NCBI GenBank assembly: GCA_030649335.1
Contig: JAUSLL010000085.1
Coordinates: forward strand, 1-52,107
Direction: 5' to 3'
Length of the DNA stretch: 52,107 nt
DNA from: Parvibaculum sp.
GTDB taxonomy: Bacteria; Pseudomonadota; Alphaproteobacteria; Parvibaculales; Parvibaculaceae
Part shown: piece by piece, positions 16,580 to 31,400 of the stretch
Layout of the letters: each line of letters begins with the position of its first letter
Numbering within the stretch: position 1 is the first letter of the stretch
Translations under genes and position numbers: made by a program
Notes under the pieces: generated by a model
What the model was told of the DNA's origin: nothing
The model's database searches: none
What the model saw: the letters and a program-made list of their open reading frames with translations, nothing else

Positions 16580-17035
16580 ATGGAAATTTATGTCGATGCA
16601 GACGCCTGCCCGGTCAAAGACGAGGTGCTCCGCGTCGCCGAGCGCCATAATTTGCTTGTCCATATCGTGAGCAACAGCGGCATGAGGCCGAGCCGAAATC
16701 CGATGGTCCGGCAGGTGATCGTGCCACAAACGCCGGACGCGGCCGACGATTGGATTGCAGATCACATCCAGACTGACGACATTTGCATCACCGCCGACAT
16801 TCCGCTGGCCGCGCGCTGTATTGAACAGGGGGCGGCTTCGCTGCATTCCAACGGCAAGCCGTTCACAACCGAAAGCATCGGCATGGCGCTTGCCATGCGT
16901 AACTTGATGCAGCAATTGCGCGAGGCGGGCGACGTGAAAGGCACAAATCCGGCCTTCACCAAAGAAGACCGGTCACGGTTTCTCCGTTCGCTGGAAGACA
17001 CCATTCAATTGCATTTGCGCAATGCAACGCGCTGA
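16580..17035 (+). CDS. YaiI/YqxD family protein (UPF0178)
   Basis: A 151-residue member of the UPF0178 family, a PIN-like fold of unknown biological role. The N terminus MEIYVDADACPVKDEVLRVA and the ITADIPLAARC and NGKPFTTESIG segments are the family hallmarks; the acidic cluster DADACPVKDE resembles a nuclease-type metal site. The ATG at 16580 has AGGAG about 9 bases upstream and matches the family start; upstream in-frame codons are not needed. Confidence 0.9.
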   Translation: MEIYVDADACPVKDEVLRVAERHNLLVHIVSNSGMRPSRNPMVRQVIVPQTPDAADDWIADHIQTDDICITADIPLAARCIEQGAASLHSNGKPFTTESIGMALAMRNLMQQLREAGDVKGTNPAFTKEDRSRFLRSLEDTIQLHLRNATR

Positions 17036-17110: not shown

Positions 17111-17992
17111 ATGGTCGAAATCACAGAACACGCTTTTCATTTTCGCGGCGCGGACGGGCATAATGTTGCCGCATGGCGCTGGTCGAAACCTGTGCCGCCC
17201 CGCGTTGTTCTGCAGGTTGCGCACGGCATGGGCGAACATGCGCTTCGCTATAAGCCGAAACTTGAAACGCTGATGGATGCCGGTGTGGTCGTTTATGCAA
17301 ATGATCACCGTGGTCACGGCGCGACAGCGCCGACGCCTGCACAATATGGCGATTTCGGCGAGAGTGGATTCCCCGCCCTCGCCAGCGATATGTCATTGCT
17401 GACTGTGCAGGCGCGTAAGGAAAATCCGGGTCTGCCGATTGTTTTGCTGGGCCACAGCATGGGCTCCTTTGCCGCGCAGCTATATGCGGTTGAGCACTCC
17501 GACCTGATTGACGGTCTCGTCATCTCCGGTTCATCTGCGCTTGATCTGGTCATCACCGTGCTGCCCGCCGATCCGGACGCACCGGCGCTTGATGCTTTCA
17601 ACGGCGCGTTTCAGCCAGCACGCACACCGTTCGATTGGCTGAGCCGCGACAATGCCGAAGTCGATGCCTATATCGCTGATCCGATGTGCGGCTTCTCAGT
17701 GACGCCTGCTTCCATGCAGTCGATGGTTGTTGCCTTGTTGCCGACCGCGACACCGGAGGCCGTTGCGAAAATTCGTAAAGACTTGCCTGTCTACTTCTTC
17801 TCCGGCGACAAGGACCCCGTCGGCGGTCCGGCTCTGAGTTTTCTGGCGGTCTTGGTGGAACGCTACAAAGCGCGCGGCCTCAAAGTGTCGTCGGATTTCT
17901 ACAAGGACGGTCGGCATGAAATGTTGAATGAGACGAACAGAGCAGAAGTCGTGGCCAATCTCGGTCGCTTCATCGAGAGCGTGATCCCGTGA
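17111..17992 (+). CDS. Alpha/beta hydrolase, monoacylglycerol-lipase-like
   Basis: A 293-residue serine hydrolase of the Hydrolase_4 (PldB/monoglyceride lipase) type. Visible are HGMGEHALRY (oxyanion region), DHRGHG, the nucleophile elbow GHSMGSF, the acid in FSGDKDPVGG and the catalytic histidine in DGRHEMLNE. Likely acts on lysophospholipids or monoacylglycerols in the cytoplasm; no signal peptide is seen. ATG at 17111 has AGGGA about 5 bases ahead; ATG at 17105 would add two residues. Its stop overlaps the next gene (GTGA), so both products are probably made together. Confidence 0.85.
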   Translation: MVEITEHAFHFRGADGHNVAAWRWSKPVPPRVVLQVAHGMGEHALRYKPKLETLMDAGVVVYANDHRGHGATAPTPAQYGDFGESGFPALASDMSLLTVQARKENPGLPIVLLGHSMGSFAAQLYAVEHSDLIDGLVISGSSALDLVITVLPADPDAPALDAFNGAFQPARTPFDWLSRDNAEVDAYIADPMCGFSVTPASMQSMVVALLPTATPEAVAKIRKDLPVYFFSGDKDPVGGPALSFLAVLVERYKARGLKVSSDFYKDGRHEMLNETNRAEVVANLGRFIESVIP

Positions 17993-19014
17993 CCGTCGCG
18001 CCGTCGCTCGCCGGATATAAAGCTGTATCCAAGCTGTATAACGCCTTGATGACGGGGCTGGTGCTGACCCTCGTCACACGCAAGAGTGCTGACGCGGCAG
18101 CACAATTTGTTGAGGGACATTTTCGTCGCCAGCATTTGGAGAAGTTTCTGCCCGGGTTGAAAAAACTCGGACTCGACGCACAGCCCGATGCCGTTGCCTG
18201 TGCTCAGTATCACTATTTTTCAAATGCGCTCGGCGGCGTCAAAACGGAGTATTACGCCGAAAGCGATCAGAAAGCCTGGGTACGCTATCCGCCACCGCGC
18301 TGGATCTGGCAGGGTGCAGCCATCTGCGGCATTCCCTCGCACGTCAACGCGGGCATGCTGCACGGCTGGCATGGCCACAATGGTGTGTCGCTCGGCAACA
18401 ACAGGCTCGGCTTTGTCTGCACGGGTCAAACGGTTGACGGGTCTTCGGGCCTCGAGGGCTATTACTTCGACTACGGCCGCGAAATTACCGAGAGTGAGCG
18501 CGTGCGTTTCGCCTACGACGAGACAACGCCGGACTATGATTCCGCCAATGCCCCCAAGCTCGATCTCGCGGACTGGCCGGAAGAACGCTTGAAAAAAGTC
18601 GAGCGTGGTTACGCGATGGAATATGTGCGTTCCCTTGTACCGACCATGCTTGCTCTGTTCGGGCCGGACGACACCCGCAACCATCTTGGTCAGGCCGCGC
18701 GGCTCATCGGCATGCAACTCTACGATGAAACCTCGGCGCTCCTCGGTGTAGAACCGGGCAGCCCGCAATCATTCGCCACATATCTCGCTTCACTCGCCGC
18801 CGCTCAGGGGGAGACCATCGATATCGCCGAAGGGGGCGGGGCGATCACGCTGCATCAAACAGGCTGGCGGCTGATGGACGGGCTCGATCCGCACCTTGCC
18901 GCATTCGAAGCATGGAACCGGTTGTGGGAAGGCGCGCTCGCCGTTCATAATCGTCGCCTGACGCTTACAACCAAGCGCACCACCGACGGCATCGAATGGC
19001 GGATCAGCGCTTGA
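17989..19014 (+). CDS. Uncharacterised 341-aa protein
   Basis: I do not recognise this family. The GTG start overlaps the hydrolase stop, so it is coupled to it. No signal peptide is evident, though residues 10-30 are mildly hydrophobic. A His/Gly/Trp-rich patch (IPSHVNAGMLHGWHGHNG, about residues 114-131) precedes SLGNNRLGFVCTGQTVDG and an aromatic EGYYFDYGREI; the rest is predicted helical with acidic stretches. The patch could bind metal, but this is only a guess. Codon use and length look normal, so it is a real gene. It converges with and overlaps the GFA gene by 11 bases. Confidence 0.75.
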   Translation: MTVAPSLAGYKAVSKLYNALMTGLVLTLVTRKSADAAAQFVEGHFRRQHLEKFLPGLKKLGLDAQPDAVACAQYHYFSNALGGVKTEYYAESDQKAWVRYPPPRWIWQGAAICGIPSHVNAGMLHGWHGHNGVSLGNNRLGFVCTGQTVDGSSGLEGYYFDYGREITESERVRFAYDETTPDYDSANAPKLDLADWPEERLKKVERGYAMEYVRSLVPTMLALFGPDDTRNHLGQAARLIGMQLYDETSALLGVEPGSPQSFATYLASLAAAQGETIDIAEGGGAITLHQTGWRLMDGLDPHLAAFEAWNRLWEGALAVHNRRLTLTTKRTTDGIEWRISA

Positions 19015-19555: not shown

Positions 19556-19585
19556 TTGACAAAGTTCCTTTTTGGAACTTATATT
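19556..19585 (+). promoter_or_regulatory. Sigma70 promoter with embedded operator-like inverted repeat
   Basis: -35 TTGACA at 19556-19561 (6/6), -10 TATATT at 19580-19585 (5/6), spacer 18 bases. The spacer holds AAGTTCC-TTTTT-GGAACTT (19562-19580), a perfect 7-bp inverted repeat. A repressor bound there would block RNA polymerase. It lies 30 bases ahead of the SDR gene; the TetR protein at 22429-23160 is the nearest candidate regulator. Confidence 0.7.
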
Positions 19586-19614
19586 CAGGCCAACAATAAC
19601 CGGAGGGTTCACGC

Positions 19615-20361
19615 ATGGCGGCCAAACGAAATGCGACAGTCGCGGTCATCGGCGCGGGCGACTATATCGGCGGCGCCATCGCCAAGCGGTTTGCAGCGGA
19701 AGGCTACACGGTCTATGCCGGTCGCCGCACGGCCGACAAACTCGCTCCCCTCAAATCCGAAATCGAGGCAGCGGGCGGCGCATGCGAGACGCGCGGTCTT
19801 GATGCGCGCAAGGAAGACGAAGTAACGGCCTTTCTCGCGGAGGCCAATGCGCTCGCGCCGCTCGAAGTTTGTATTTTCAACGTCGGCGCCAATGTGAATT
19901 TCCCCTTGCTCGACACGACCGAACGCGTGTTTCGCAAGGTCTGGGAGATGGCTTGTTATTCGGGCTTTCTTGCCGGTCGTGAGGCCGCACGCCATATGGT
20001 GCCACGAGGGCAGGGGTCGATCTTCTTTACGGGCGCGACGGCAAGCCTGCGTGGAGGTGTTGGTTATGCAGCCTTTGCATCGGCCAAGTTCGGCCTGCGG
20101 GCTGTTGCCCAAAGCATGTCGCGTGAACTGGGCCCGAAAAACATCCATGTCGCGCACCTCATCATTGACGCCGGTGTTGACACCGCCTTTGTCCGTGACC
20201 GCATCAGGGCTGCGCAGGGCGAGGAAGCGGTCGCCAATCTGCCGTCGGATCGCCTGATGAACCCGTCCTCCATCGCCGATACCTATTGGATGCTACACAA
20301 TCAGCCGCGCGATGCATGGACACATGAACTTGATATTCGTCCTTATGGGGAGCAATGGTAA
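19615..20361 (+). CDS. SDR-family protein with altered active site
   Basis: A 248-residue short-chain dehydrogenase/reductase fold. The nucleotide-binding turn is VIGAGDYIGGAIAKRF, ending in a Gly pattern looser than TGxxxGxG, and NVGAN replaces NNAG. At the catalytic site the usual Tyr of YxxxK is Phe154 (FASAK, Lys158 kept), and the catalytic Ser region reads TGATAS. The enzyme may use a different mechanism, or bind ligand without redox catalysis; several related SDRs share the Phe. It starts the cluster behind the 19556 promoter, and its stop overlaps the next start by one base (TAATG). Confidence 0.82.
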   Translation: MAAKRNATVAVIGAGDYIGGAIAKRFAAEGYTVYAGRRTADKLAPLKSEIEAAGGACETRGLDARKEDEVTAFLAEANALAPLEVCIFNVGANVNFPLLDTTERVFRKVWEMACYSGFLAGREAARHMVPRGQGSIFFTGATASLRGGVGYAAFASAKFGLRAVAQSMSRELGPKNIHVAHLIIDAGVDTAFVRDRIRAAQGEEAVANLPSDRLMNPSSIADTYWMLHNQPRDAWTHELDIRPYGEQW

Positions 20362-20978
20362 TGACTAACGTCACAGTGGAACATCATTTCGATTTCGGCA
20401 GCCCGAATTCCTATCTTGCTTGGAAAGTCATTCCTGAGATCGAAAAGCGGACAGGTGTTGCCTTCACCTATGTCCCTGTGCTGCTCGGCGGTATTTTCAA
20501 GCTGACGGGCAATCAACCTCCGATGATCGCATTCGGGAGTATCAAAAATAAGCCGCAATATGACGCGCTTGAAATGAAGCGCTTTATTGCGCGGCACAAG
20601 TTCGACAAATTCAAAATGAATGCGCATTTCCCCGTGAACACGGTCCAAATCATGCGCGGTGCTATCGTCGCGCAGATGGGTGGCAATCTTCCGCAATATC
20701 TCGACATCGTTTTCAATGCCATGTGGGAACAGTCGTTGAAGATGGATGACGCAGACGTGATCGCCGCCGCGCTTAATGCGGGTGGTCTCGACGGGGCGCA
20801 TATTCTGGCGCGCATTCAGGATCAGGATGTAAAAGACAAACTTCTGGCCAATACATCGACCTCGGTCGAACGCGGAACATTCGGTGCCCCGACATTTTAT
20901 GTCGGCAACGAGATATTCTTCGGCAAGGACCGTTTGCGCGATCTGGAAGAAGAGATTGTTCGGGTAAAAACGGCCTGA
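20361..20978 (+). CDS. GST-kappa/2-hydroxychromene-2-carboxylate isomerase-like protein
   Basis: A 205-residue thioredoxin-fold protein of the DsbA/GST-kappa family. FDFGSPNSYLA near the N terminus puts Ser14 where HCCA isomerases bind glutathione, and ERGTFGAPTFYVGNEIFFG is the second signature. Known members isomerise 2-hydroxychromene-2-carboxylate in naphthalene breakdown, but the family is broad and no aromatic pathway is present, so the substrate is open. ATG at 20361 has GGGGAG 9 bases upstream; ATG at 20355 is too near it. Confidence 0.85.
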   Translation: MTNVTVEHHFDFGSPNSYLAWKVIPEIEKRTGVAFTYVPVLLGGIFKLTGNQPPMIAFGSIKNKPQYDALEMKRFIARHKFDKFKMNAHFPVNTVQIMRGAIVAQMGGNLPQYLDIVFNAMWEQSLKMDDADVIAAALNAGGLDGAHILARIQDQDVKDKLLANTSTSVERGTFGAPTFYVGNEIFFGKDRLRDLEEEIVRVKTA

Positions 20979-21017
20979 TTGGCATTGCGCGGCACATTTG
21001 AAGGTCTATCATTCTGT

Positions 21018-21030
21018 CCAAATAATTTGG
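21018..21030. promoter_or_regulatory. 13-bp palindrome before the esterase
   Basis: CCAAATAATTTGG, 6-bp perfect arms around one base, ends 9 bases before the esterase ATG. A weak promoter (TTGCGC at 20985-20990, 16-base gap, TATCAT at 21007-21012) would place it at the transcription start. The half-site CCAAAT recurs at 23206-23211 between the TetR and SDR genes. Operator role is inferred. Confidence 0.4.
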
Positions 21031-21039
21031 GAGAGAGAC

Positions 21040-21951
21040 ATGAGAGATCCGGAAATCGTTGTAGTGCGTGAGTTTCTTGCCAATTCCAATTTCCCTCAGG
21101 ACACAGCGGAACTGCGCGCGGCCTATGACGCCATGGGCGATATGTTTCCGCCTGCGAGTGATGTGACGCTCGAGAAAGTCAGCGCCAATGGCGTGCCGGC
21201 TGAATGGTCATCGACGCCGACAGCCAATCAGGATCGTGTCATCCTTTATGTGCATGGTGGTGGTTATGTTATCGGTTCCGTGGCGAGCCATCGTCACCTG
21301 GTGACTGAGCTTGGTCGTGCTTCCGGCACGCGCACATTGGCGCTTGATTACAGGCTAGCACCCGAACATCCATTCCCCGCTGCGGTCGATGACGCAATGG
21401 CGGGCTACAAGTTTCTCCTCGCGCAGGGATTTGCGCCCGGCAACATCGCGATTGCCGGTGACAGTGCGGGCGGCGGACTGACGGTCGCCACTCTGTTGGC
21501 AATCAAGGATGCTGGTCTGGACCAACCTGCATGTGGCTTTTGCATCTCGCCCTGGATCGACCTCGAGGCATTGGGTAATTCCATGGTGACACAAGCGGCA
21601 CTTGATCCGATGGTGCAGAAAGACGGTTTGCTCGGTATGGCAGCCGCCTATCTCAACGGCAGCAATCCGCGTGCGCCGCTCGCCGCACCGCTCTACGGCG
21701 ACTTCCGCGGTATCGCGCCTTTGCTCATTCAGGTCGGCGCAGCTGAGACATTGCTCGACGATGCGACGCGTCTTGCGAGCGTTGCAGGAGCCGCTGATGT
21801 GGAAGTCAATCTTCAGGTCTGGCCGGAAATGATCCACGTTTGGCATTTCTTCCACCCGATCCTCGGCGCGGCGCGTCACGCGATCAAAGGGGCGGGCGAA
21901 ATCATTTCTAAAGCGATGGACCGCAGCGTGGGCCTGCAGAAAGTCGCCTGA
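21040..21951 (+). CDS. HSL-family (group IV) esterase/lipase
   Basis: A 303-residue alpha/beta hydrolase of the hormone-sensitive-lipase family. The oxyanion motif HGGG is at 72-75 and the nucleophile elbow GDSAGGG has Ser142. RLAPEHPFPAA follows the family pattern; the acid lies in VGAAETLLDDA (Glu in the Asp position, known in this family) and the histidine in MIHVWHFF. Members cleave short acyl esters and some lactones. ATG at 21040 follows a GGGAGAG site. It is followed by a strong two-way terminator. Confidence 0.9.
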   Translation: MRDPEIVVVREFLANSNFPQDTAELRAAYDAMGDMFPPASDVTLEKVSANGVPAEWSSTPTANQDRVILYVHGGGYVIGSVASHRHLVTELGRASGTRTLALDYRLAPEHPFPAAVDDAMAGYKFLLAQGFAPGNIAIAGDSAGGGLTVATLLAIKDAGLDQPACGFCISPWIDLEALGNSMVTQAALDPMVQKDGLLGMAAAYLNGSNPRAPLAAPLYGDFRGIAPLLIQVGAAETLLDDATRLASVAGAADVEVNLQVWPEMIHVWHFFHPILGAARHAIKGAGEIISKAMDRSVGLQKVA

Positions 21952-21959
21952 TCAAAATT

Positions 21960-21993
21960 ACGGGTTCCGGCGTAAATTCCGGAACCCGTTTTT
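21960..21993. terminator. Bidirectional terminator
   Basis: Stem ACGGGTTCCGG (21960-21970) with CCGGAACCCGT (21979-21989), 8-base loop. TTTTT follows on the plus strand (21989-21993); on the minus strand TAATTTT follows. It serves both the esterase gene and the convergent SnoaL-like gene, whose TAA stop lies in the T tract. Confidence 0.85.
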
Positions 21994-22414
21994 ACTGCGC
22001 TAGAAACTTGGTGAACGTATCGCCGACTTTCCCGCCGCTCATTTGATCCAGCACGGCCGCGGTGTCCAAAGCTTCAAACACTTCCCGAATTCCATCCGCG
22101 CCGCATCGCGCAAACAACGTGTATTCATTCACGTATGGGCTGCCGTTCGACCGGTACCGTGCGCTATAGATGAAACGCACCGCGCTCAATTGTTCGTTGC
22201 CGATTTCGTCGAGGATATCGACTTTGCAATCGGCGAAGTATGTGTCGTTCCAGACGCTAGTGTTGAACGCGACGACGGCGTCAAAACTCTGCATCGGGCG
22301 CGGAAATGGAAGCGATGCTGACAGGCTCCACTGAATGTTGGGTGCGTACATCGCCTTCATTTTGTCGACGTCGCCGAAAGCTGAGACCAGCCGTCCCGCC
22401 GGTGTGTTCACCAT
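21992..22414 (-). CDS. SnoaL-like/NTF2-fold protein
   Basis: A 140-residue protein with the cone-shaped NTF2/SnoaL fold, judged from the pattern AGRLVSAFGDVDKMKAMYAPNIQWSL (split, residues about 6-31), a central FNTSVWNDTYFADCKVDIL and the closing EYTLFARCGADGIREVFEALD. Such proteins are isomerases, cyclases or simply binding proteins. ATG at 22414 has AGGGAGA about 6 bases before it; an ATG pair six codons earlier overlaps the TetR stop. It follows the TetR gene closely and is probably in its transcript. Confidence 0.75.
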   Translation of the reverse strand: MVNTPAGRLVSAFGDVDKMKAMYAPNIQWSLSASLPFPRPMQSFDAVVAFNTSVWNDTYFADCKVDILDEIGNEQLSAVRFIYSARYRSNGSPYVNEYTLFARCGADGIREVFEALDTAAVLDQMSGGKVGDTFTKFLAQ

Positions 22415-22428
22415 TTCTGTCTCCCTCA

Positions 22429-23160
22429 TCAATCTAAAATCATGCCGACGGAGCCGATAATCGCGCGGGGTTGCTTCGTCCTGCGCGCTGCCCCTTCAAA
22501 TGAGCCTTCATCAAGCGACGCTTCAAGCATCACAGTCAGCGTCTGCACCAGATGCGGCAGCGTATCTTCGGAATTCCACATGGAATGTGTGCGCGAGCGA
22601 TCGGTAAGCGCTGCCTCGCGCATGCTGAGAATGCTGCTGAGATAACCACCCATAAAAACAAAACGTTGATTCTTGGCGGCCGTAGGCATGTTGGGCATGA
22701 GGTGTCGCAAATGCTCCAGCGCGCGCAGGTAGCCGGAGTTCCAGCGCTTTTCGAGTGCATCCATGAAAAGCGTGCGGTGGTTGAGCGTCAGCATAGCAAT
22801 GAAACGAATATAGGTGTCTTCTTCGTCTTCGCTTTTGCCCAAACCGATGGAGGGATAGACGAGCGCTTCCACAACATCATGCACATTGTTTGGTCCGCCC
22901 GCCTGTTCCAGCTTGTCAAGAAAGGCGTTACGCCTCATATCGATCAGCTTTGCGCCATCCGCCACAAGTTCGCGCACCAGTGCTTCCTTGGTGCCGAAAT
23001 AATAGGTGAGCGAACCGTGGTTCTTCTGTTGTGCAGCATCAACGATTTCGCGCACGCTGGCCCCGTCAATACCGGAAATGGCAAAGAGTCGTCGGGCTGC
23101 AAGCTTGATCTGCTCGCGCGCCGGAATTTTCTCTGCTGGTTTCCCTTGCGTCTTTGCCAT
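22429..23160 (-). CDS. TetR-family transcriptional regulator
   Basis: A 243-residue regulator. The DNA-binding domain (about residues 15-65) has the helix-turn-helix DGASVREIVDAAQQKNHGSL followed by TYYFGTKEALVREL, the TetR signature. The long C-terminal ligand domain is of the type found in regulators of acyl-CoA or aromatic catabolism. Start is uncertain: ATG at 23160 fits the family, a TTG two codons earlier is better placed after AAGG, and upstream ATGs lack ribosome sites. It is transcribed away from the SDR/ACAD genes, the usual place for a local repressor. Confidence 0.9.
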   Translation of the reverse strand: MAKTQGKPAEKIPAREQIKLAARRLFAISGIDGASVREIVDAAQQKNHGSLTYYFGTKEALVRELVADGAKLIDMRRNAFLDKLEQAGGPNNVHDVVEALVYPSIGLGKSEDEEDTYIRFIAMLTLNHRTLFMDALEKRWNSGYLRALEHLRHLMPNMPTAAKNQRFVFMGGYLSSILSMREAALTDRSRTHSMWNSEDTLPHLVQTLTVMLEASLDEGSFEGAARRTKQPRAIIGSVGMILD

Positions 23161-23252
23161 GCGCAAAAGAATGCCTTGCGTCAGAAGCATCGTCAAACTT
23201 ATTATCCAAATGACCTAAAATTAGAAATCAAAAATGCATGAGGGAGCCATTG

Positions 23253-23987
23253 ATGTCTGAGCTCGATTTTTCAGGAAAAACAGTGCTGGTCGTTGGTGGC
23301 TCAAGCGGCATCGGCAACGGCATTGCGCATGCATTCAAAGATAAGGGGGCGGCGGTTCACGTCTGGGGCACGCGCGCGAAAGCGTCAGATTACTCCGTCG
23401 CCGAAGGCTCGGACATGACGGGGCTTCACTATGACCGGATGGATGTGTCCGATTTCGAGGCCATTGAAAAATACGATGCTCCGTTCAAATCGCTCGATGT
23501 GCTGGTGCTGAGCCAGGGCACGGTTATCTACCAGCGCGGCGAATTCAAGATGGATGGTTTCCAGAAGGTGATGGACGTCAACGTCAACAGTCTGATGGCT
23601 TGTGCGATCAAGTTTCATCCCTTGCTTGCTGCGGCCAGGGGTTCGCTCATCACGGTGAGTTCAACCGCCGCCTTTCATTCAACGCGCGGCAACCCCGCCT
23701 ACAACGCTTCAAAAACCGGTGCGGTCGGCCTCACGCGTACATTGGCTGAGGCTTGGGCCAAAGACGGCATTCGCGTGAACGGTATTGCGCCGGGTCTCGT
23801 TGATACGAAACTCACCAAAGTGACAACAGAAAATCCGGAACGCCTTGCAGGGTCCATTCAAGGTATCCCGATGCGTCGCCTCGGCACACCGGCAGATATG
23901 GCCGGTGTCGCGTTGTTTCTCGCATCACCACTCGCGTCTTACGTGTTGGGTCAGACGATCCCCGTGGATGGCGGCCTCATTCTTTAA
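23253..23987 (+). CDS. Short-chain dehydrogenase/reductase
   Basis: A 244-residue SDR with an intact active site. The cofactor turn is VVGGSSGIGNGIA, and the catalytic set is Ser in VSSTAAF plus Tyr/Lys in AYNASKTG. The structural NNAG is replaced by LSQGT. The end GLVDTKL...PVDGGLIL is typical of 3-oxoacyl reductase-like SDRs. AGGGAG is 6 bases ahead of the ATG at 23253; an earlier ATG overlaps that site. It is the first gene right of the TetR gene, 39 bases before the acyl-CoA dehydrogenase, and likely in its operon. Confidence 0.9.
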   Translation: MSELDFSGKTVLVVGGSSGIGNGIAHAFKDKGAAVHVWGTRAKASDYSVAEGSDMTGLHYDRMDVSDFEAIEKYDAPFKSLDVLVLSQGTVIYQRGEFKMDGFQKVMDVNVNSLMACAIKFHPLLAAARGSLITVSSTAAFHSTRGNPAYNASKTGAVGLTRTLAEAWAKDGIRVNGIAPGLVDTKLTKVTTENPERLAGSIQGIPMRRLGTPADMAGVALFLASPLASYVLGQTIPVDGGLIL

Positions 23988-24026
23988 ATTTCAAATTCAG
24001 AACAAAAACAAATCAAGGAGAGACAA

Positions 24027-25319
24027 ATGGCGTGGGATTTTGAAACCGATCCGGAATTTCAGAAAGACCTCGATTGGATCGCGGAATTTGTCCGCACCGA
24101 AGTTGAGCCGCTTGATCACGTACTGGGTAGTCCCTATGACGTGAAGAACCCCAACAACATCAAGCTCGTGCGACCGCTGCAAGCAAAAGTGAAAGCGCGC
24201 AAGCTCTGGGCCTGCCATCTCGGACCCGAACTCGGAGGCCAAGGCTATGGTCAGGTGAAGCTAGCGCTGATGAACGAAATTCTGGGTCGTTCGCATTTTG
24301 CGCCGACCGTCTTCGGCTGTCAGGCGCCCGACACGGGCAATGCGGAAATTCTTGCTCATTACGGCACGGAGGCTCAAAAGAAAAAATATCTCCAGCCGCT
24401 TCTCGACAACGAAATCGTCTCTTGCTTCTCCATGACCGAGCCGCAGGGTGGTGCCGATCCGCTGATCTTCACGACAACAGCGGTGCGCGACGGCAATGAA
24501 TGGGTCATCAACGGCGAGAAATGGTTCTCGTCCAATGCGAAATATGCCGCCTTCTACATCGTGATGGCGATTACCGAACCCAATGCGCCGCCCTACCAGC
24601 GCATGTCCATGCTGATTGTTCCTGCGGAAACACCGGGCGTAGAGATTTTGCGCAATGTTGGTTTCGGCTCGGAAGGCGAAGGCAGCCACGCCTATATCCG
24701 CTACACCAATGTGCGCGTGCCGATTGATCACGTGCTGGGCGAACCAGGCGGTGCGTTTGTCGTCGCGCAGGTGCGCCTCGGCGGCGGCCGCATCCACCAC
24801 GCCATGCGCACCATTGCCGATGCCAAAATGGCATTCGATATGATGTGCGAACGCGTCATTTCACGTGAAACGCAAGGCACCAAGCTTTCTGAAAAACAGA
24901 TGGTGCAGGAAAAGATTGCCGATTCATGGATCGAGATAGAGCAGTTCCGCCTGCTCGTGTTGCGCACAGCCTGGCTCATTGACAAGCACAAGGACTACCG
25001 CGTTGTGCGCAAGGATATTGCAGCAGTGAAAGCGGCTATGCCCAAGGTGCTGCACGATGTGGCGGCCCGCGCGCTTCATCTGCACGGCTCGCTCGGTCTG
25101 TCGAATGAAATGCCGTTCACAGGTCAGGTCATTTCGTCCTTCTTCCTTGGTCTTGCCGATGGCCCGACCGAGGTTCACAAGGTGACAGTCGCCAAGCAGG
25201 TCTTGCGCGAATACCGCCCTAGCAATGAACTTTTCCCCACCTATCATCTGCCCAATGTGCGCAAGCATGCATTCGAGAAATACGGTGACCAGATCGAAGA
25301 CCTCGACGAAGCTGTGTGA
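24027..25319 (+). CDS. ACAD10/11-like acyl-CoA dehydrogenase
   Basis: FAD-dependent acyl-CoA dehydrogenase of 430 residues. The segment CQAPDTGNAEIL (about 98-109) and CFSMTEPQGGAD follow animal ACAD10/ACAD11 closely. At the catalytic-base position (YEGT in medium-chain enzymes) it has ADGPTEVH, with Asp378, the same ADGPxEVH layout as in ACAD11. Those enzymes, and LvaC of Pseudomonas, process phosphorylated 4-hydroxyacyl-CoA instead of simple fatty acyl-CoA. The partner kinase domain is encoded separately at 27189. Ribosome site AAGGAGAG precedes the ATG. Function by analogy, not proven. Confidence 0.88.
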   Translation: MAWDFETDPEFQKDLDWIAEFVRTEVEPLDHVLGSPYDVKNPNNIKLVRPLQAKVKARKLWACHLGPELGGQGYGQVKLALMNEILGRSHFAPTVFGCQAPDTGNAEILAHYGTEAQKKKYLQPLLDNEIVSCFSMTEPQGGADPLIFTTTAVRDGNEWVINGEKWFSSNAKYAAFYIVMAITEPNAPPYQRMSMLIVPAETPGVEILRNVGFGSEGEGSHAYIRYTNVRVPIDHVLGEPGGAFVVAQVRLGGGRIHHAMRTIADAKMAFDMMCERVISRETQGTKLSEKQMVQEKIADSWIEIEQFRLLVLRTAWLIDKHKDYRVVRKDIAAVKAAMPKVLHDVAARALHLHGSLGLSNEMPFTGQVISSFFLGLADGPTEVHKVTVAKQVLREYRPSNELFPTYHLPNVRKHAFEKYGDQIEDLDEAV

Positions 25320-25340
25320 TCAAAAGCAAGAAGGGGGGGA

Positions 25341-26114
25341 ATGGCCATGATGGAATCGCGTTCGTTAAAGGGCCTGAAGGTGATCGTCACCGGAGCGGCC
25401 AGCGGCATGGGTCGCGCCACGGCGGAGATATTCGCCGCCGAGGGCGCACATGTGGCGGTGACCGACTACACGCTTGAGGGTGCGGCAGCAGTTGCGGATG
25501 CCATTGTCGCCTCGGGTGGCAGCGCCAAGGCGTGGAAACTTGATGTCGGTGATAAGGCGGAGATCGAGACCGTTGTGGTCTCTATCGCGCAGCATTTCGG
25601 CGGGCTTGATGCCGTGGTCAATAACGCAGGCATCTCCGGCTTCACCCAGATCGACAATGAAGGCTATGACGAGCTGTGGGAGCGCATGATCCGCGTTTGC
25701 CTGACAGCGCATCAGCGCATCATCCGTGCGGCTCTGCCTTACCTGCGGCAATCAAAAAGCCCGCGTATCGTCAACATTGCCTCGACGGAAGCTCTGGGTG
25801 CAACAGCGCTCGACAGTGCATACTCAGCTGCGAAGGCAGGCGTCACGGGTTTAACGCGCGCGCTCGCCGTTGAACTCGGCAAGGAAGGCATCACCGTCAA
25901 TTGCGTCTGCCCTGGTCCGATCTCAACCGGTATGACGCAAGGCATTCCTGACGATCACAAGGAAATCTACGCCAAACGGCGTACCGCGATGCGTCGCTAC
26001 GGCCGACCGGAAGAAGTAGCGCATATCACCGTCAGCCTCTGCATGCCTGCCGCTTCCTACATCACCGGCGTCACCATCCCCGTCGATGGTGGGTTGATGG
26101 CGCGCAATGCTTGA
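25341..26114 (+). CDS. Short-chain dehydrogenase/reductase
   Basis: A 257-residue classical [16 protein letters not shown] is the cofactor turn, NNAGISG the structural motif, and Ser in NIASTEAL with Tyr/Lys in YSAAKAG the active site. The C terminus has [11 protein letters not shown] and PVDGGLM. Probably NAD(H)-linked oxidation or reduction of a hydroxy/oxo acyl intermediate. A G-rich ribosome site precedes ATG 25341; the in-frame ATGs at 25347 and 25350 are alternatives. It lies 21 bases after the dehydrogenase gene. Confidence 0.9.
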
Positions 26115-26132
26115 ATTTTTGAGGTCAGATAC

Positions 26133-27173
26133 ATGAAGGCGCTTCTCTATCAAGGCCCGCGCGACATTCGCTACGAGAGCTTTGACGATCCGTCGCTTCT
26201 CGCTGACACCGACGCCATTATAAAGATGGACAAATGCGGCATTTGTGGCAGCGACCTGCACATCTATCACGGCGAAGGCTTCAGCCCCGACCTGGGCTTC
26301 TGTGTGGGTCATGAGGCCGTGGGCGAAGTCGCCGAGGTCGGTCGCGGTGTGCGGCGTCTAAAGGCCGGTGACAAGGTGATGCTGTCGGCGGCGGTTGGCT
26401 GCGGCTCATGCGTCAATTGTCTCGCGGGCAATATCAATCATTGTTTGTCGGGTGGAGCAGGGTGCTATGGTCTCAGCCATAAGCTCGAAGGATGTCAGGC
26501 GGAAGGCATTCGCGTGCCGATGGCCGATTTCAATGCGCACCCCATTCCTGAAGGTATCACGACCGATCAGGCGCTGATGCTCACCGACAATCTGCCAACC
26601 GCGTGGTTCGGTTGCGTCAATGCCAATATCCGGCCGGGTGCGAAGGTCGGTGTCGTTGGCCTGGGGCCCATCGGCTTGATGGCGGTTGAAAGTTGCTTCG
26701 TGTTGGGCGCGTCGGAAGTCTACGCCATCGACCTCGTGCCCGAGCGGCGCGCCATCGCGGCGACAATGGGCGCTATACCGGTGGATGGTGCCAATGCGCT
26801 GGAAGTAATCGGTGCGGCCACCAAGGGCCAGGGACTTGATAGCGTTGTCGAGGCTGTGGGTGCAGACGCCACGATCAAAATGTCGATCATGTTGGCGGGC
26901 AAGCGCGGTCATGTCTCGGCCATCGGCGTCAACCAATCGCGCGATTTCGCTTTTCCGATGGGATTGGCCTTCATGAAGGGCCTGACGTTCCACATCGGCA
27001 CCTGCTCGGTGCAATCGCATTGGCCGGACCTTGTGCCACTCATCCGCAGCGGCCGCCTAAAGCCGGAGCGGTTCATCACCCACGAAATGAGCCTTGCCGA
27101 AGGGGCGGAAGCCTATCGCCTGTTCGACGGTCGCCAGAAAGGCGCCCTGAAGACCGTCATGGTTCCGGCTTGA
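26133..27173 (+). CDS. Zinc-dependent alcohol dehydrogenase
   Basis: A 346-residue medium-chain dehydrogenase. Catalytic zinc ligands are Cys38 (KCGICGSDLH) and His60-Glu61 (VGHEAVGE). The structural zinc lobe has all four cysteines: 90, 93, 96 and 104. The Rossmann turn is VGVVGLGPIGLMA, followed by an acidic residue in AIDLVPERR, which favours NAD over NADP. Likely oxidises a secondary alcohol or polyol. It is placed 18 bases after the SDR gene and 15 before the kinase gene, inside the same operon. Confidence 0.9.
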   Translation: MKALLYQGPRDIRYESFDDPSLLADTDAIIKMDKCGICGSDLHIYHGEGFSPDLGFCVGHEAVGEVAEVGRGVRRLKAGDKVMLSAAVGCGSCVNCLAGNINHCLSGGAGCYGLSHKLEGCQAEGIRVPMADFNAHPIPEGITTDQALMLTDNLPTAWFGCVNANIRPGAKVGVVGLGPIGLMAVESCFVLGASEVYAIDLVPERRAIAATMGAIPVDGANALEVIGAATKGQGLDSVVEAVGADATIKMSIMLAGKRGHVSAIGVNQSRDFAFPMGLAFMKGLTFHIGTCSVQSHWPDLVPLIRSGRLKPERFITHEMSLAEGAEAYRLFDGRQKGALKTVMVPA

Positions 27174-27188
27174 GGAGGCAGTAAGCAT

Positions 27189-28238
27189 ATGTCACTCGAA
27201 AGCTGGACTGATCTTGTTGATCTTGAGCGTCTGACCGGATGGATGGACGAGCAGGGGTTGGAAAAAGGTCCGCTGACCGCTGTGACGGCGCTCACTGGCG
27301 GCACGCAAAATATATTGCTGAAATTCCGCCGCGGCTCGCGTGACTTCGTGCTCCGCCGCCCACCGCACCGCCCGCATATGAACGGCAGCGAGACGATGCG
27401 CCGTGAAGCGCGTGTGCTGGGTGCATTGGCGGGCAGCGATGTGCCCCATCCGGGCCTCATTGCGGCTTGCGCCGAGGAAGATGTGCTTGGCGCGGCTTTC
27501 TATCTGATGGAGCCGGTTGACGGGTTCAACGCCACCGTCGGCCTTCCGCCGCTCCATGCGGGCAATGCGTCGGTCCGTCGTGAAATGGGTCTCGCCATTG
27601 CCGACGGGGCCGCGGCTCTTGGTCGTGTCGACTATGTTGCCGTCGGGCTCACCGGCCTCGGCAAGCCCGAGAACTATCTCGAACGTCAGGTCGCACGCTG
27701 GCGCGGTCAGCTCGAAAGCTATGCGGAATATGAAGGCTGGGCAGGTCCCGGCGACATTCCCGGTGTTGAGCGCGTCGCCAAATGGCTCGGCGACAATTGC
27801 CCGCGTGATTTCAAACCCGGCGTCATCCACGGCGACTATCACCTTGCCAATGTGATGTACCGACACGACAGCGGCCAGCTTGCCGCCATTGTCGATTGGG
27901 AATTGACCACCATAGGCGACCCGCTGATCGATCTCGGCTGGCTGATGGCAACCTGGCCGGATGCCGATGGCGTGCGCACGACAGGTTCTGTAGGTATCCA
28001 GCCGTGGGAAGGTTTCCCGACCGCGCCGGAACTCATCGCCCGCTACGCCGAAGGCAGCACCCGCGACCTGTCGGCCATCGGCTGGTATGCGGTCCTCGCC
28101 TGCTACAAGCTCGGCATCATTCTGGAGGGCACAAATGCCCGCGCCGCCGCTGGCAAGGCCCCACGCGAAACCGGCGATATGCTCCACGCCTCGACCATTG
28201 GTCTGTTCCGGCGTGCACTCGGCTGGATCGACACCTGA
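27189..28238 (+). CDS. APH-fold kinase (ACAD10/11 N-terminal-domain type)
   Basis: A 349-residue aminoglycoside-phosphotransferase-fold kinase. The catalytic loop is HGDYHLANVMY (His214, Asp216, Asn221) and the metal-binding Asp236 lies in VDWELTTIGDPL, a form typical of the kinase halves of ACAD10/11 and of LvaA-type enzymes, not of antibiotic kinases. In those systems the kinase phosphorylates a 4-hydroxyacyl-CoA before an ACAD protein acts. The adjacent ACAD gene at 24027 supports the same job. It is the last gene of the cluster. A drug-resistance role is unlikely. Confidence 0.88.
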   Translation: MSLESWTDLVDLERLTGWMDEQGLEKGPLTAVTALTGGTQNILLKFRRGSRDFVLRRPPHRPHMNGSETMRREARVLGALAGSDVPHPGLIAACAEEDVLGAAFYLMEPVDGFNATVGLPPLHAGNASVRREMGLAIADGAAALGRVDYVAVGLTGLGKPENYLERQVARWRGQLESYAEYEGWAGPGDIPGVERVAKWLGDNCPRDFKPGVIHGDYHLANVMYRHDSGQLAAIVDWELTTIGDPLIDLGWLMATWPDADGVRTTGSVGIQPWEGFPTAPELIARYAEGSTRDLSAIGWYAVLACYKLGIILEGTNARAAAGKAPRETGDMLHASTIGLFRRALGWIDT

Positions 28239-28269
28239 TTTCAAGTGGAATCCGGATTTTTTTGAAATC
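28237..28269. repeat. Inverted repeat at the operon end
   Basis: GATTTCAA (28237-28244) and TTGAAATC (28262-28269) are perfect 8-bp arms around a 17-base loop that holds the palindrome AATCCGGATT (28249-28258) and a run of seven T. It overlaps the kinase stop. It may fold at the transcript end but is not a classic terminator because the T run is inside the loop. Confidence 0.4.
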
Positions 28270-28406: not shown

Positions 28407-31400
28407 ATGACTGAGATCCGCCGTTCCGCTCTGTTTGTCGCCCTCTTTTTGGCAGCAGTAAGTTGGGCGGGGTGGGTTCCCGCAGCGCAGGCGGCGGAAG
28501 GGACGCTGAGCGTCGCCCGCATCACACCTTCGGGCATGGACGCTGCTGCAGGGCAGCAAATGGTGATCGAGTTCGACCGTGCCGTCGTGCCGCTCGGACG
28601 GATGGAACGCAGCAGCGCTGAAATTCCTGTCGAAATCTCCCCCAAGCTTAATTGCGAATGGCGCTGGCTCAGCGACCGCGCGCTGGCCTGCCAATTGGGT
28701 GAGAAAGACGCTATGGCGGCGTCCACACATTATACCGTGACGGTCAATCCCGGCATTATTGCGGCTGACAACACGACGCTCGCCGAACCGCTGCATCACG
28801 AGTTTGTCACGAGCCGTATCGCGCTTGATCGCGTCGAATTCTCCGGTTGGACCGGACCGGGTGTGCCTGCGCTGCAAATGACATTCAACCAGCCTGTCCG
28901 CCGTGACAGTGTGGCGCGCAGCATCAATTTCGCATGGACGGAAAACGGCGAGGGCACACGCGCCGTTACGGCTGAAGCTGGTCCCGATTGGTCGCAAGCG
29001 CCGGATGACGCACTTGTCGATGTACCGCGCCAGCCCGGCATCGCTGGATTCTTCAGGCGGCTCCTGTCCTATTTCTCGTGGTTCCGCGCCGACAACGAAC
29101 CCGCGCCGCACGAATGGGCGCGCCGCACATGGGTCGTGACACCGGCCAGCCCCTTGCCGCTCGACACGGAAGTCGAACTCCTCATGAAGCCCGGCCTGAT
29201 ATCGGCTTTGGGTGCCGAACCCAGCATTGTGGACCAACAGGTCAAGAAATTTGCCACTTTCGGCGCGTTCAAATTTCTCGGTGCACGTTGCGATGACAAT
29301 TCGGGCAACACAATCAGCATTGCCCCCGGCGACAAAGCGGGTGCTTTGTGCGGACCGTGGAACATTGTTCGTCTTGCATTTTCTTCGCCCGTTCAACGTA
29401 AAGAACTGAAAGACCATGTTGTCATTTCGCCGGAGCTTGGCAAGCCGACCCCGGACAGCGATCCTTGGGCCGACGTCGATCTGGATCAGACAGACGGCTA
29501 CTACGACTGGAAAGGTCACGACAAGGCTGATGAATTTTCAGCACGGTTTCCGGTCTACTTGCGCTCAGGTCGCGACTACGAAGTCAGCCTAAAACCCGGC
29601 GACACCAAGATCGTCGATATATTTGGCCGCGAGCTGGAAGGTGACGTCAGCGCCCGCTGGCGCATGGATGATCGTCCGCCAAATTTTGAACTGCCCAATA
29701 ACATCGCTGTACTTGAAAAAGGTATCGACAGCGAAGTACCGCTGTTCGTCAACAACCTCACCAAAAGAGTCGTCACATTTTCGCGTATGACAGCGGCGGG
29801 CATCAAAACCGGCCTAGAAGATGTGCGAAAAATCGATCCGATCCGCAATGTTCAATATGCCATTCCGCTCGGCGTGCGGGAGATGCTGGAAGGCAAATCC
29901 GGTTCCATATTCGGCCGGATGACGACGACGCCTGCGACACGTAAGCAATCGCCCTTTGTTTTTGCGCAGGTCACGCCTTTCGCGCTCCATGTCAAATTGG
30001 CGCATTACAATACATTCGTGTGGGTGACAGATCTCGCCACAGGCGAACCTGTGTCCGGTGCGCGCGTATCGCTTTATCGCGATCCGGATTTGTTCAGTGC
30101 CTTCTGCTCGTCGAACAATTATGTCGCTTGGAACGCGCAACGCGAGGAAGCCTTCGCCATCAGCGACGCCAGTGGTCTCGCGCTGCTGCCGGGCAAACCG
30201 CGCAAGGTGGACGGGTGGGAATCGCCTTGTGACACCGCGCTGACCGTTAAAGCGCAAAAGGCCGACGATCTTGCCCTCATGCCGCTCTACTATCAGTTTG
30301 AAGCAGATACCTATCGCGCGTCGGGTGAGCAACTCTGGTCCACCAGCCAGTCAGCGCAAGAGCATATGCGTGTTTGGGGCACCACAGCGCAGGGTGTCTA
30401 TCGCGCGGGTGACACGATCCAATACAAAGTCTATGTGCGCGGTCAGGACAATAAGGGCCTCACTGCCGCGCCGCCGTCGAACTATCGAGTGCAGTTGATC
30501 GACCCGACCGGCAAGCTAGTTGCTGAAACCAAAGACCTGTCTTTGAACGAATTCGGCGCAACGTCGGGCGACTTCAACATCTCGAAAAACGGCACAGTCG
30601 GCTGGTATCGTTTCCGCCTCTTGCAAAAACTTTATGTGACAGCCGGAGACATCAAGGACTACTCAACCGATGAAGGCCCGTTGGGCGAAACAGGCTGGTA
30701 TGCCTGGAAGCCGATGCAGGTGCTGGTCAGTGATTTCACTCCGGCATCATTCCGCGTGACAACCACCGTCAACGGCAAGATTTTTGGAGCCGGTCAGTCG
30801 GTTGATGTGGAAAGCAAAGCGGCGCTCCATGCCGGTGGCCCCTATACCAATGCCACGGCGCGCTTCACTGCCATGCTCAGCCCGAAGGCGATGCATTCTG
30901 ATCATCCGGTCGCCGCCAGTTTTGATTATTCAAGGAGCGACGAAGACTATTCCGGATCGCAAAGAATGATCGCGCAACTCGAGCAGCCGCTCGACGCGCA
31001 AGGCCTCGCCAAAGTGTTGGTCAAAATTCCCGATGAGGAAAGTGCCGCATACGGCAATCTGACTTTTGAAAGTGCCGTTGCCGACGACCGTGGCAAAAAC
31101 ATTGCGAACGCGGCAACAGCTATCTATGCCGCGACAGATCGCTTTGTCGGGTTGAAGCCCACCGCATGGATTTTTCAGGCTGCGAAACCGGCATCATACG
31201 AATATGTCGTGGTCGACGCTGAGGGGGTGCCGGTCAAAGGTGCGAAGGTCGATCTCGAAATCGCTTATAAGAATGTCACCGCTGCGCGCGTGAAATCAGC
31301 GGGCAATGTCTACCAGACCGTTTACAACACCAGTTGGGATAAAGCCGGAAGCTGCGCGGGCACGTCGGAAGAAGGTCCGGCGAAGTGTGCCTTCACACCG

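Follow-up and report, generated by a model that had tools for sequence, protein, structure and literature searches.

Why would an alphaproteobacterium keep an acyl-CoA dehydrogenase (ACAD) and a separate kinase of the APH fold within one ten-gene cluster, and what might both enzymes do together? The question is raised by contig JAUSLL010000085.1 from Parvibaculum sp. (assembly GCA_030649335.1; 3.54 Mb in 135 contigs, completeness ca. 93%), all 52,107 nucleotides of which were analysed and are called here the window. A previous reading of the sequence alone (hereafter, the sequence-only reading) had taken the pair for the two halves of animal ACAD10/11, and had proposed that the cluster could open lactones and route hydroxy acids to beta-oxidation. 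Our results point to a different answer. By analogy with known systems, four genes of the cluster, encoding a TetR-family regulator, a short-chain dehydrogenase/reductase (SDR1), the ACAD and the kinase, probably form a kinase-assisted module for hydroxyl removal, which would convert a hydroxyacyl-CoA into an enoyl-CoA via a phosphorylated intermediate. Enzymes for this kind of dehydration were identified in mammals in 2024-2025, and the lva operon was described in bacteria in 2017. Below, G, C and L numbers are our handles for genomes, contigs and loci.

Residues and lineages of the two enzymes

The ACAD (24027-25319, forward strand) contains the motifs CQAPDTGN and ADGPTEVH, and the kinase (27189-28238, forward strand) HGDYHLAN and DWELTTIG, all as quoted in the sequence-only reading. 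The comparison with ACAD11 that it had proposed gave matches far above chance for both proteins (E 2e-73 for the ACAD, 6e-26 for the kinase); the other nearest solved protein to the ACAD was 4HR3 (E 4e-78). In ACAD11, R626, H634 and R637, near the base D753, have been proposed to hold the 4-phosphoacyl-CoA, R631 being common to ACADs, and changes to Ala or Leu at the first three were the most disruptive (PMC12440821). All five residues are kept in the window ACAD, as R250, R255, H258, R261 and D378, the last being the catalytic-base Asp, within LADGPTEVH. In an alignment of 180 rows, formed by relatives of the window protein and plasmid neighbours that are not all independent, this RRHRD set appears in 134 rows, including those of ACAD11 and of LvaC-like proteins, and in none of the rows labelled conventional. 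A further 14 rows contain RRHND, and the remaining 32, among them all the conventional ones, have other residues.

A tree of 41 rows, which includes only five conventional rows, on long branches, and whose named outgroup did not form one side of a branch, grouped the phosphate-type ACADs in a single clade of 36 rows (support 97/92). Three lineages are distinguished in it: LvaC-like (three rows, 100/99), ACAD11-side, or x-type (14 rows, 100/99), and that of the window, here W (17 rows, 100/97); an earlier quick tree of 61 rows gave the same picture. The window ACAD is thus outside the clade of ACAD11, to whose PDB chain it is 41% identical. Its own genome contains other relatives of both enzymes. 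Four signature ACADs were confirmed there, and the ACAD encoded in C39 shares 60% identity with ACAD11 and 37% with that of the window.

The RRHND group joins the window lineage in the tree (98/93) and has Asn at the position of ACAD11 R637 in its 14 rows, which include L036, from the same genome as the window (C2:24392-25450), and rows from L012-L024. These enzymes perhaps use another substrate or another leaving group.

The kinase keeps the catalytic D/N/D set (D216, N221, D236), with D216 and N221 corresponding to D220 and N225 of the ACAD11 kinase. Its R72, next to E73, and R166 are probably equivalent to the CoA-contacting pair R86/R176 of ACAD11, although the first assignment is unsure, since R86 was taken to be the Arg beside the helix-C Glu, which we counted at chain residue 83. 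A 77-row tree places the window kinase in a clade of 52 rows with support 100/100. The ACAD11 kinase domain, on a long branch, groups instead with 3DXP and two kinases from C39 (eight rows, 94/94), in a clade that does not contain the window kinase; the latter is 27% identical to the ACAD11 PDB chain and the two C39 kinases are 43-47% identical to it. Fold models of the proteins fit their families and are not decisive for function; the ACAD11 kinase domain and 9O56 are absent from the pdb_via list, an absence that carries no information.

The kinase lineage can also be found in several copies per genome: G072, the genome of L090, titled Sulfuricaulis sp., contains four (62-67%), in four gene settings (L194-L197).

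A proposed pathway and the position of the hydroxyl

From these residues, and following the models for lva and ACAD10/11 (PMC12440821, PMC11342911, PMC6692424), we infer the following pathway. SDR1 (23238-23987, forward strand), which has an intact YNASK motif, would probably interconvert 4-oxo- and 4-hydroxyacyl-CoA, either supplying or removing the hydroxyl; the kinase would then use ATP to phosphorylate this hydroxyl on the CoA ester. In the ACAD, D378 would take the alpha proton while R250, H258 and R261 hold the phosphate, which would be eliminated through a transient redox change of the FAD to yield a 2-enoyl-CoA for beta-oxidation. The role of SDR1 is suggested by its position, and would be LvaD-like without SDR1 being a LvaD orthologue; in the lva system (PMC6692424), LvaD has this function for levulinyl-CoA. 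Activation with CoA would have to come from elsewhere. A search with 24 reference ligases and CoA transferases (E 1e-5) gave no match in the whole window, in agreement with the sequence-only reading, which had listed no acyl-CoA ligase in the cluster.

The kinase might act on a hydroxyl that is not at C4, such as a ring or tertiary alcohol of a terpenoid or steroid CoA ester, again followed by elimination of the phosphate, much as 25-hydroxy steroid kinase acts on a free steroid. We consider this unlikely, although some relatives have P450, Rieske and amidohydrolase genes nearby, a hint that branched or ring acids carrying a hydroxyl are involved. In sequence, the kinase is much closer to 3DXP (E 7e-39) than to 25-hydroxy steroid kinase (E 4e-8), and it keeps the probable CoA-contacting Arg residues, as the ACAD does its phosphate pocket.

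A conserved core with accessory genes

The ten open reading frames of the cluster are uninterrupted across 19615-28238 and each has a fitting Pfam match, so that the gene content given in the sequence-only reading stands: an HSL-family esterase, three SDRs, a zinc alcohol dehydrogenase, a GST-kappa protein, a SnoaL-like protein, the TetR regulator, the ACAD and the kinase. Conservation, however, separates these genes. We compared 88 loci, 80 from named genomes and fetched via the ACAD and eight from plasmids, many of them short stretches. The kinase (at least 50% identity) is present in the stretch at 15 of the 80 loci, 13 of which also contain SDR1, and SDR1, ACAD and kinase occur together in three of the eight plasmid loci. 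The TetR gene (22429-23196, reverse strand; Pfam TetR_N) is divergent from SDR1, and so it is in G003, G005, G006, G027, G031, Hydrogenophaga L107, Caulobacter L048 and Camelimonas L191; it was not seen at the G015 locus. In all, the conserved core consists of TetR, SDR1, the kinase and a phosphate-type ACAD.

Two other genes lie between the ACAD and the kinase, both on the forward strand and supported by Pfam. SDR2 (25341-26114), with an intact YSAAK motif, is found in five genomes of the genus and was not seen at the G027 locus. The zinc alcohol dehydrogenase (26133-27173) is found in G003, G006, G027 and G031; at the loci of G005 and G015 we did not see it.

The remaining four genes we take as accessories of the genus, outside the conserved unit. 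On the forward strand are SDR3 (19615-20361; Pfam adh_short), the GST-kappa/DsbA-like protein (20355-20978; Pfam DSBA) and the HSL-family alpha/beta-hydrolase (20998-21951, with a possible start at 21040; Pfam Abhydrolase_3), which scores 314 bits against the NCBIfam GESAG HSL family, below its cut-off of 430; the SnoaL-like protein (21992-22432; Pfam SnoaL_2) is on the reverse strand, co-directed with TetR. Because these four genes do not travel with the core, we rejected as main interpretation the lactone pathway, in which the HSL protein would open a gamma-lactone and the hydroxy acid would be activated, phosphorylated and dehydrated by the kinase/ACAD pair. The pathway gains something from the adjacency of all ten genes, which are retained together in G003 and G006, of the same genus, while G005, whose ACAD is a different one, retains eight of the ten positions and G015 retains six. 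SnoaL, present in G003 and G006, is nevertheless not found at the last two loci. In the sister genus, G027 has only TetR, SDR1, ACAD, alcohol dehydrogenase and kinase, and none of the four accessories was seen in the 20 kb covered around them. Among the 88 loci of other relatives, many with short flanks, HSL, GST-kappa and SnoaL had no match of at least 100 bits, and SDR3 had a single one (34%, L094); a weak GST-kappa match (28%) lies 6.6 kb from the kinase in one G400 copy (L223). HSL-type esterases are, besides, general carboxylesterases, and neither a ligase nor a CoA transferase accompanies this one in the window. Lactone opening is, then, improbable.

The neighbours of the core were varied and pointed to no single common substrate, as seen with Pfam for 20 selected proteins from Pseudomonas abietaniphila L118, Paraburkholderia L088 and Pseudomonas GM21 L068; a literature search on the name of one strain turned up nothing relevant. 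Likewise, the annotation of 14 plasmid records revealed varied clusters, three of them without a listed gene in the stretch or unlinked to the kinase. Directly upstream of SDR1, seven of 22 annotated loci have a CoA transferase, one of which was confirmed by Pfam as CoA-transferase family III, and three have an acyl-CoA ligase. The neighbourhood survey proposed with the sequence-only reading supported the core and left out its HSL, GST-kappa, SnoaL and SDR3 genes.

Kinase-ACAD linkage and exchange of the ACAD

Within one genus, the same locus may contain the ACAD of the window, a different ACAD, or none. In G005, the order is alpha-2-macroglobulin, kinase (83%), SDR2, an ACAD of the ACAD11 side, SDR1 (89%), TetR, HSL, GST-kappa and SDR3, so that the ACAD has been replaced at a conserved locus.

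The linkage extends beyond the genus. We collected 51 distinct loci of the kinase lineage (at least 43% identity), 41 of which are flanked by 4 kb or more on each side. A signature ACAD is found within 4 kb of the kinase in 30 of the 41: 21 of W type, seven x-type, one z-type, from the window side of the ACAD tree and carried by the Rhodococcus ZPP plasmid, and one LvaC-type, in the genome of Mycobacterium shimoidei. Since many of the 41 loci were reached via the ACAD, inflating the count of W, we picked out by hand a kinase-first subset of 15, with eight plasmid rows, five loci from the class survey and two further copies from G072. The plasmid rows derive from the 11 used of 40 listed, minus one with an interrupted kinase and two below 43% identity. 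Signature ACADs occur in 12 of these 15 loci (5 W, 6 x, 1 z), a count to be read knowing that three plasmid stretches were fetched via the ACAD and that G072 was chosen for its ACAD; the other three are Sulfitobacter L147, Rhodococcus L150 and L226 from G040. By our own estimate, for which ca. five such ACADs per 3.5 Mb were assumed, the chance of a nearby signature ACAD is ca. 1.3%.

Several observations weigh against the proposed module. The G015 locus keeps the kinase, and SDR1 and SDR2 are adjacent in it with no ACAD, other ACADs of the family being elsewhere in the genome. Eight of the 41 kinase loci lack an ACAD within 4 kb and three have only a non-signature one. A whole-genome search in 36 chosen genomes with a W-type ACAD located a W-type kinase beside it in 13 and away from it in 12; in the other 11, mostly metagenome assemblies, none with at least 45% identity was found, the best ones showing 31-37%. 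In a class survey of 385 genomes, the ACAD appeared in ten (E 1e-120), the kinase in five (E 1e-75) and both in three, one of which, G040, has them on different contigs; the hypergeometric chance of this co-occurrence, uncorrected for kinship, is 0.0001, or 0.003 without the genome of the window. Finally, specificity for C4 would itself be borrowed from the known systems. Because the kinase is missing or distant in many genomes with the ACAD, W-type ACADs may have further partners among the kinases of the broad family.

One could also suppose that ACAD and kinase are neighbours without a functional relation, the former being an ordinary dehydrogenase, as might be suggested by the 65 of 80 W-type ACAD loci, many of them short, without a kinase of at least 50% identity in the stretch. 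The linkage in the kinase-first subset, the replacement of the ACAD at a conserved locus and the signature residues make this doubtful, and we give it little credit. A drug-modifying kinase, as the APH fold might suggest, is hardly conceivable and was rejected, because the best curated antibiotic family, APH(3'), gave 25.6 bits for a cut-off of 205, Mph(F) and Cph scored even lower, the gene is within a CoA-metabolism operon and the ACAD11 residues are kept. The refuting outcome named in the sequence-only reading, a kinase that groups with antibiotic or choline kinases, did not appear in searches of families and PDB sequences; the kinase tree was built without such kinases.

Returning to the kinase-assisted module, the occurrence of one kinase lineage beside ACADs of three deep lineages, together with the swap at a single locus, is circumstantial support for a coupling of the two enzymes. 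It is tempting to speculate, although we hold it only tentatively, that this kinase lineage forms the constant part of a catabolic module, widespread but patchy among alpha-, beta- and gammaproteobacteria and actinobacteria, and that the ACAD is an exchangeable cartridge drawn from three deep lineages, each perhaps for a different carbon skeleton, including ring or terpenoid acids for which breakdown via phosphorylation is not yet known.

One of the kinase-first loci carries an annotation that looks false: in the Sulfitobacter pontiacus plasmid L147, the PLSDB resistance prediction 'vanG' (16800-16901) falls where an ACAD-like stretch without annotation begins, next to the kinase and SDR1.

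A probable operator between TetR and SDR1

The gap between TetR and SDR1 carries GTCAAACTTATTATCCAAATGACCTAA at 23192-23218 (forward strand), with the structure GTCA-N15-TGACCTAA, which is probably the operator of the TetR protein. The longest TetR reading frame begins within the site, but its true start is probably further in. It is exact in the window, G006 and G027, has one changed base in G003 and G005, and similar sites exist in G031, Hydrogenophaga L107 and Camelimonas L191. Scanning 19 loci with the pattern GTCA-N15/16-TGAC, we found it in the TetR-SDR1 gap of six (window, L056, L058, L059, L107 and L191) and not in the other 13, including Caulobacter L048, Brevundimonas L106 and Sulfuricaulis L194 and L196. 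Genome-wide, the exact gapped pattern has its sole match at the site in G006 and also in G027, there as an overlapping palindrome; the genome of the window has one extra match, in C99, and G003 and G005 have none, while the reversed pattern used as control gave 0 to 3 matches per genome. The argument for an operator is the place of the site and not its count. As expected for its family, the TetR protein would repress from here an operon comprising SDR1, ACAD, SDR2, the alcohol dehydrogenase and the kinase.

Other genes in and around the cluster

In SDR3, the usual YxxxK motif reads FASAK, with Phe replacing the catalytic Tyr, and the protein is maybe not functional as an SDR. At 17989-19014 (forward strand), a gene adjoining an alpha/beta-hydrolase encodes a conserved protein of 341 amino acids without a Pfam match at E 1e-5; at E 1e-30, 28 of the 61 relatives searched have it. 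Downstream of the kinase, 28407-34382 (forward strand) encodes a large bacterial alpha-2-macroglobulin; the five genomes of the genus that possess the locus (G000, G003, G005, G006 and G015) all have such a gene less than 2 kb from the kinase in this direction.

Comparison with known systems

If our interpretation is correct, bacteria hold further lineages of this chemistry beside their counterparts of ACAD10/11. These lineages often adjoin ligases, CoA transferases and oxygenases, and could account for the entry of hydroxylated branched or cyclic acids into beta-oxidation. The swapped ACAD slot would offer a natural way to see which of the enzymes determines the substrate range.

The window pair resembles ACAD10 and ACAD11 in combining a kinase and an ACAD with the same phosphate-binding and catalytic residues, and differs in being two separate reading frames instead of one polypeptide and in belonging to other lineages in both trees, which reject orthology. 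Given these separate lineages and the ACAD10/11-type genes that the same genome has in C39, the window pair appears to be a second system beside the ACAD10/11-type one. The sequence-only reading was thus right about the class, to judge from the residues, and wrong in seeing here the halves of ACAD10/11.

With the lva operon, the window shares a split kinase and ACAD accompanied by an SDR, and the RRHRD set recurs in the LvaC-like rows. Identity to LvaC/LvaA-like proteins is, however, 33% for the ACAD and 28-32%, over partial matches, for the kinase, which has two Arg absent from the three LvaA-like rows. The 24 queries matched no LvaE-type acyl-CoA ligase in the window, nor is there a DUF6285 gene beside the kinase, the sole one found in the genome being by another kinase, in C19. 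We take DUF6285 to be LvaB, as suggested by gene order in the Pseudomonas loci L209-L211, where kinase, DUF6285, ACAD, SDR and acyl-CoA ligase match lvaABCDE. In both trees, the window pair is in clades separate from the LvaA/LvaC-like proteins, themselves identified by gene order, so that orthology to LvaA/LvaC is not supported. The LvaC-like protein of L210 is 37% identical and 54% similar to ACAD11, and PMC11342911 gives 62% identity to ACAD10 and 56% to ACAD11 for LvaC of KT2440; owing to this mismatch, the lva label of L209-L211 is based on gene order together with the lengths of the kinase and the SDR. If LvaC of KT2440 were nearer to ACAD11, there would still be three lineages, one of them wrongly called LvaC.

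The 25-hydroxy steroid kinase of Sterolibacterium (PMC8449060; PDB 9FSG, 9FT5) has an APH-like fold and phosphorylates an alcohol, enabling elimination of the phosphate; its substrate, however, is a free steroid, the paper names no lyase for it and its sequence matches the window kinase weakly. A Burkholderia pair, which according to PMC11342911 replaces the ACAD10 domains in vitro, also consists of a separate kinase and ACAD acting in two steps. It is described there as nearer to ACAD10, the related bacterial kinases being up to 51% identical to ACAD10 and 38% to ACAD11, whereas the window kinase is 27% identical to ACAD11. Split bacterial kinase/ACAD pairs with this chemistry are already known from that work. 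Our literature search, mostly at the level of abstracts and excerpts, found no published account of an ACAD exchange; as far as it shows, the new elements here are a kinase lineage of its own, the linkage of that lineage to ACADs from three lineages, and the replacement of the ACAD at one locus.

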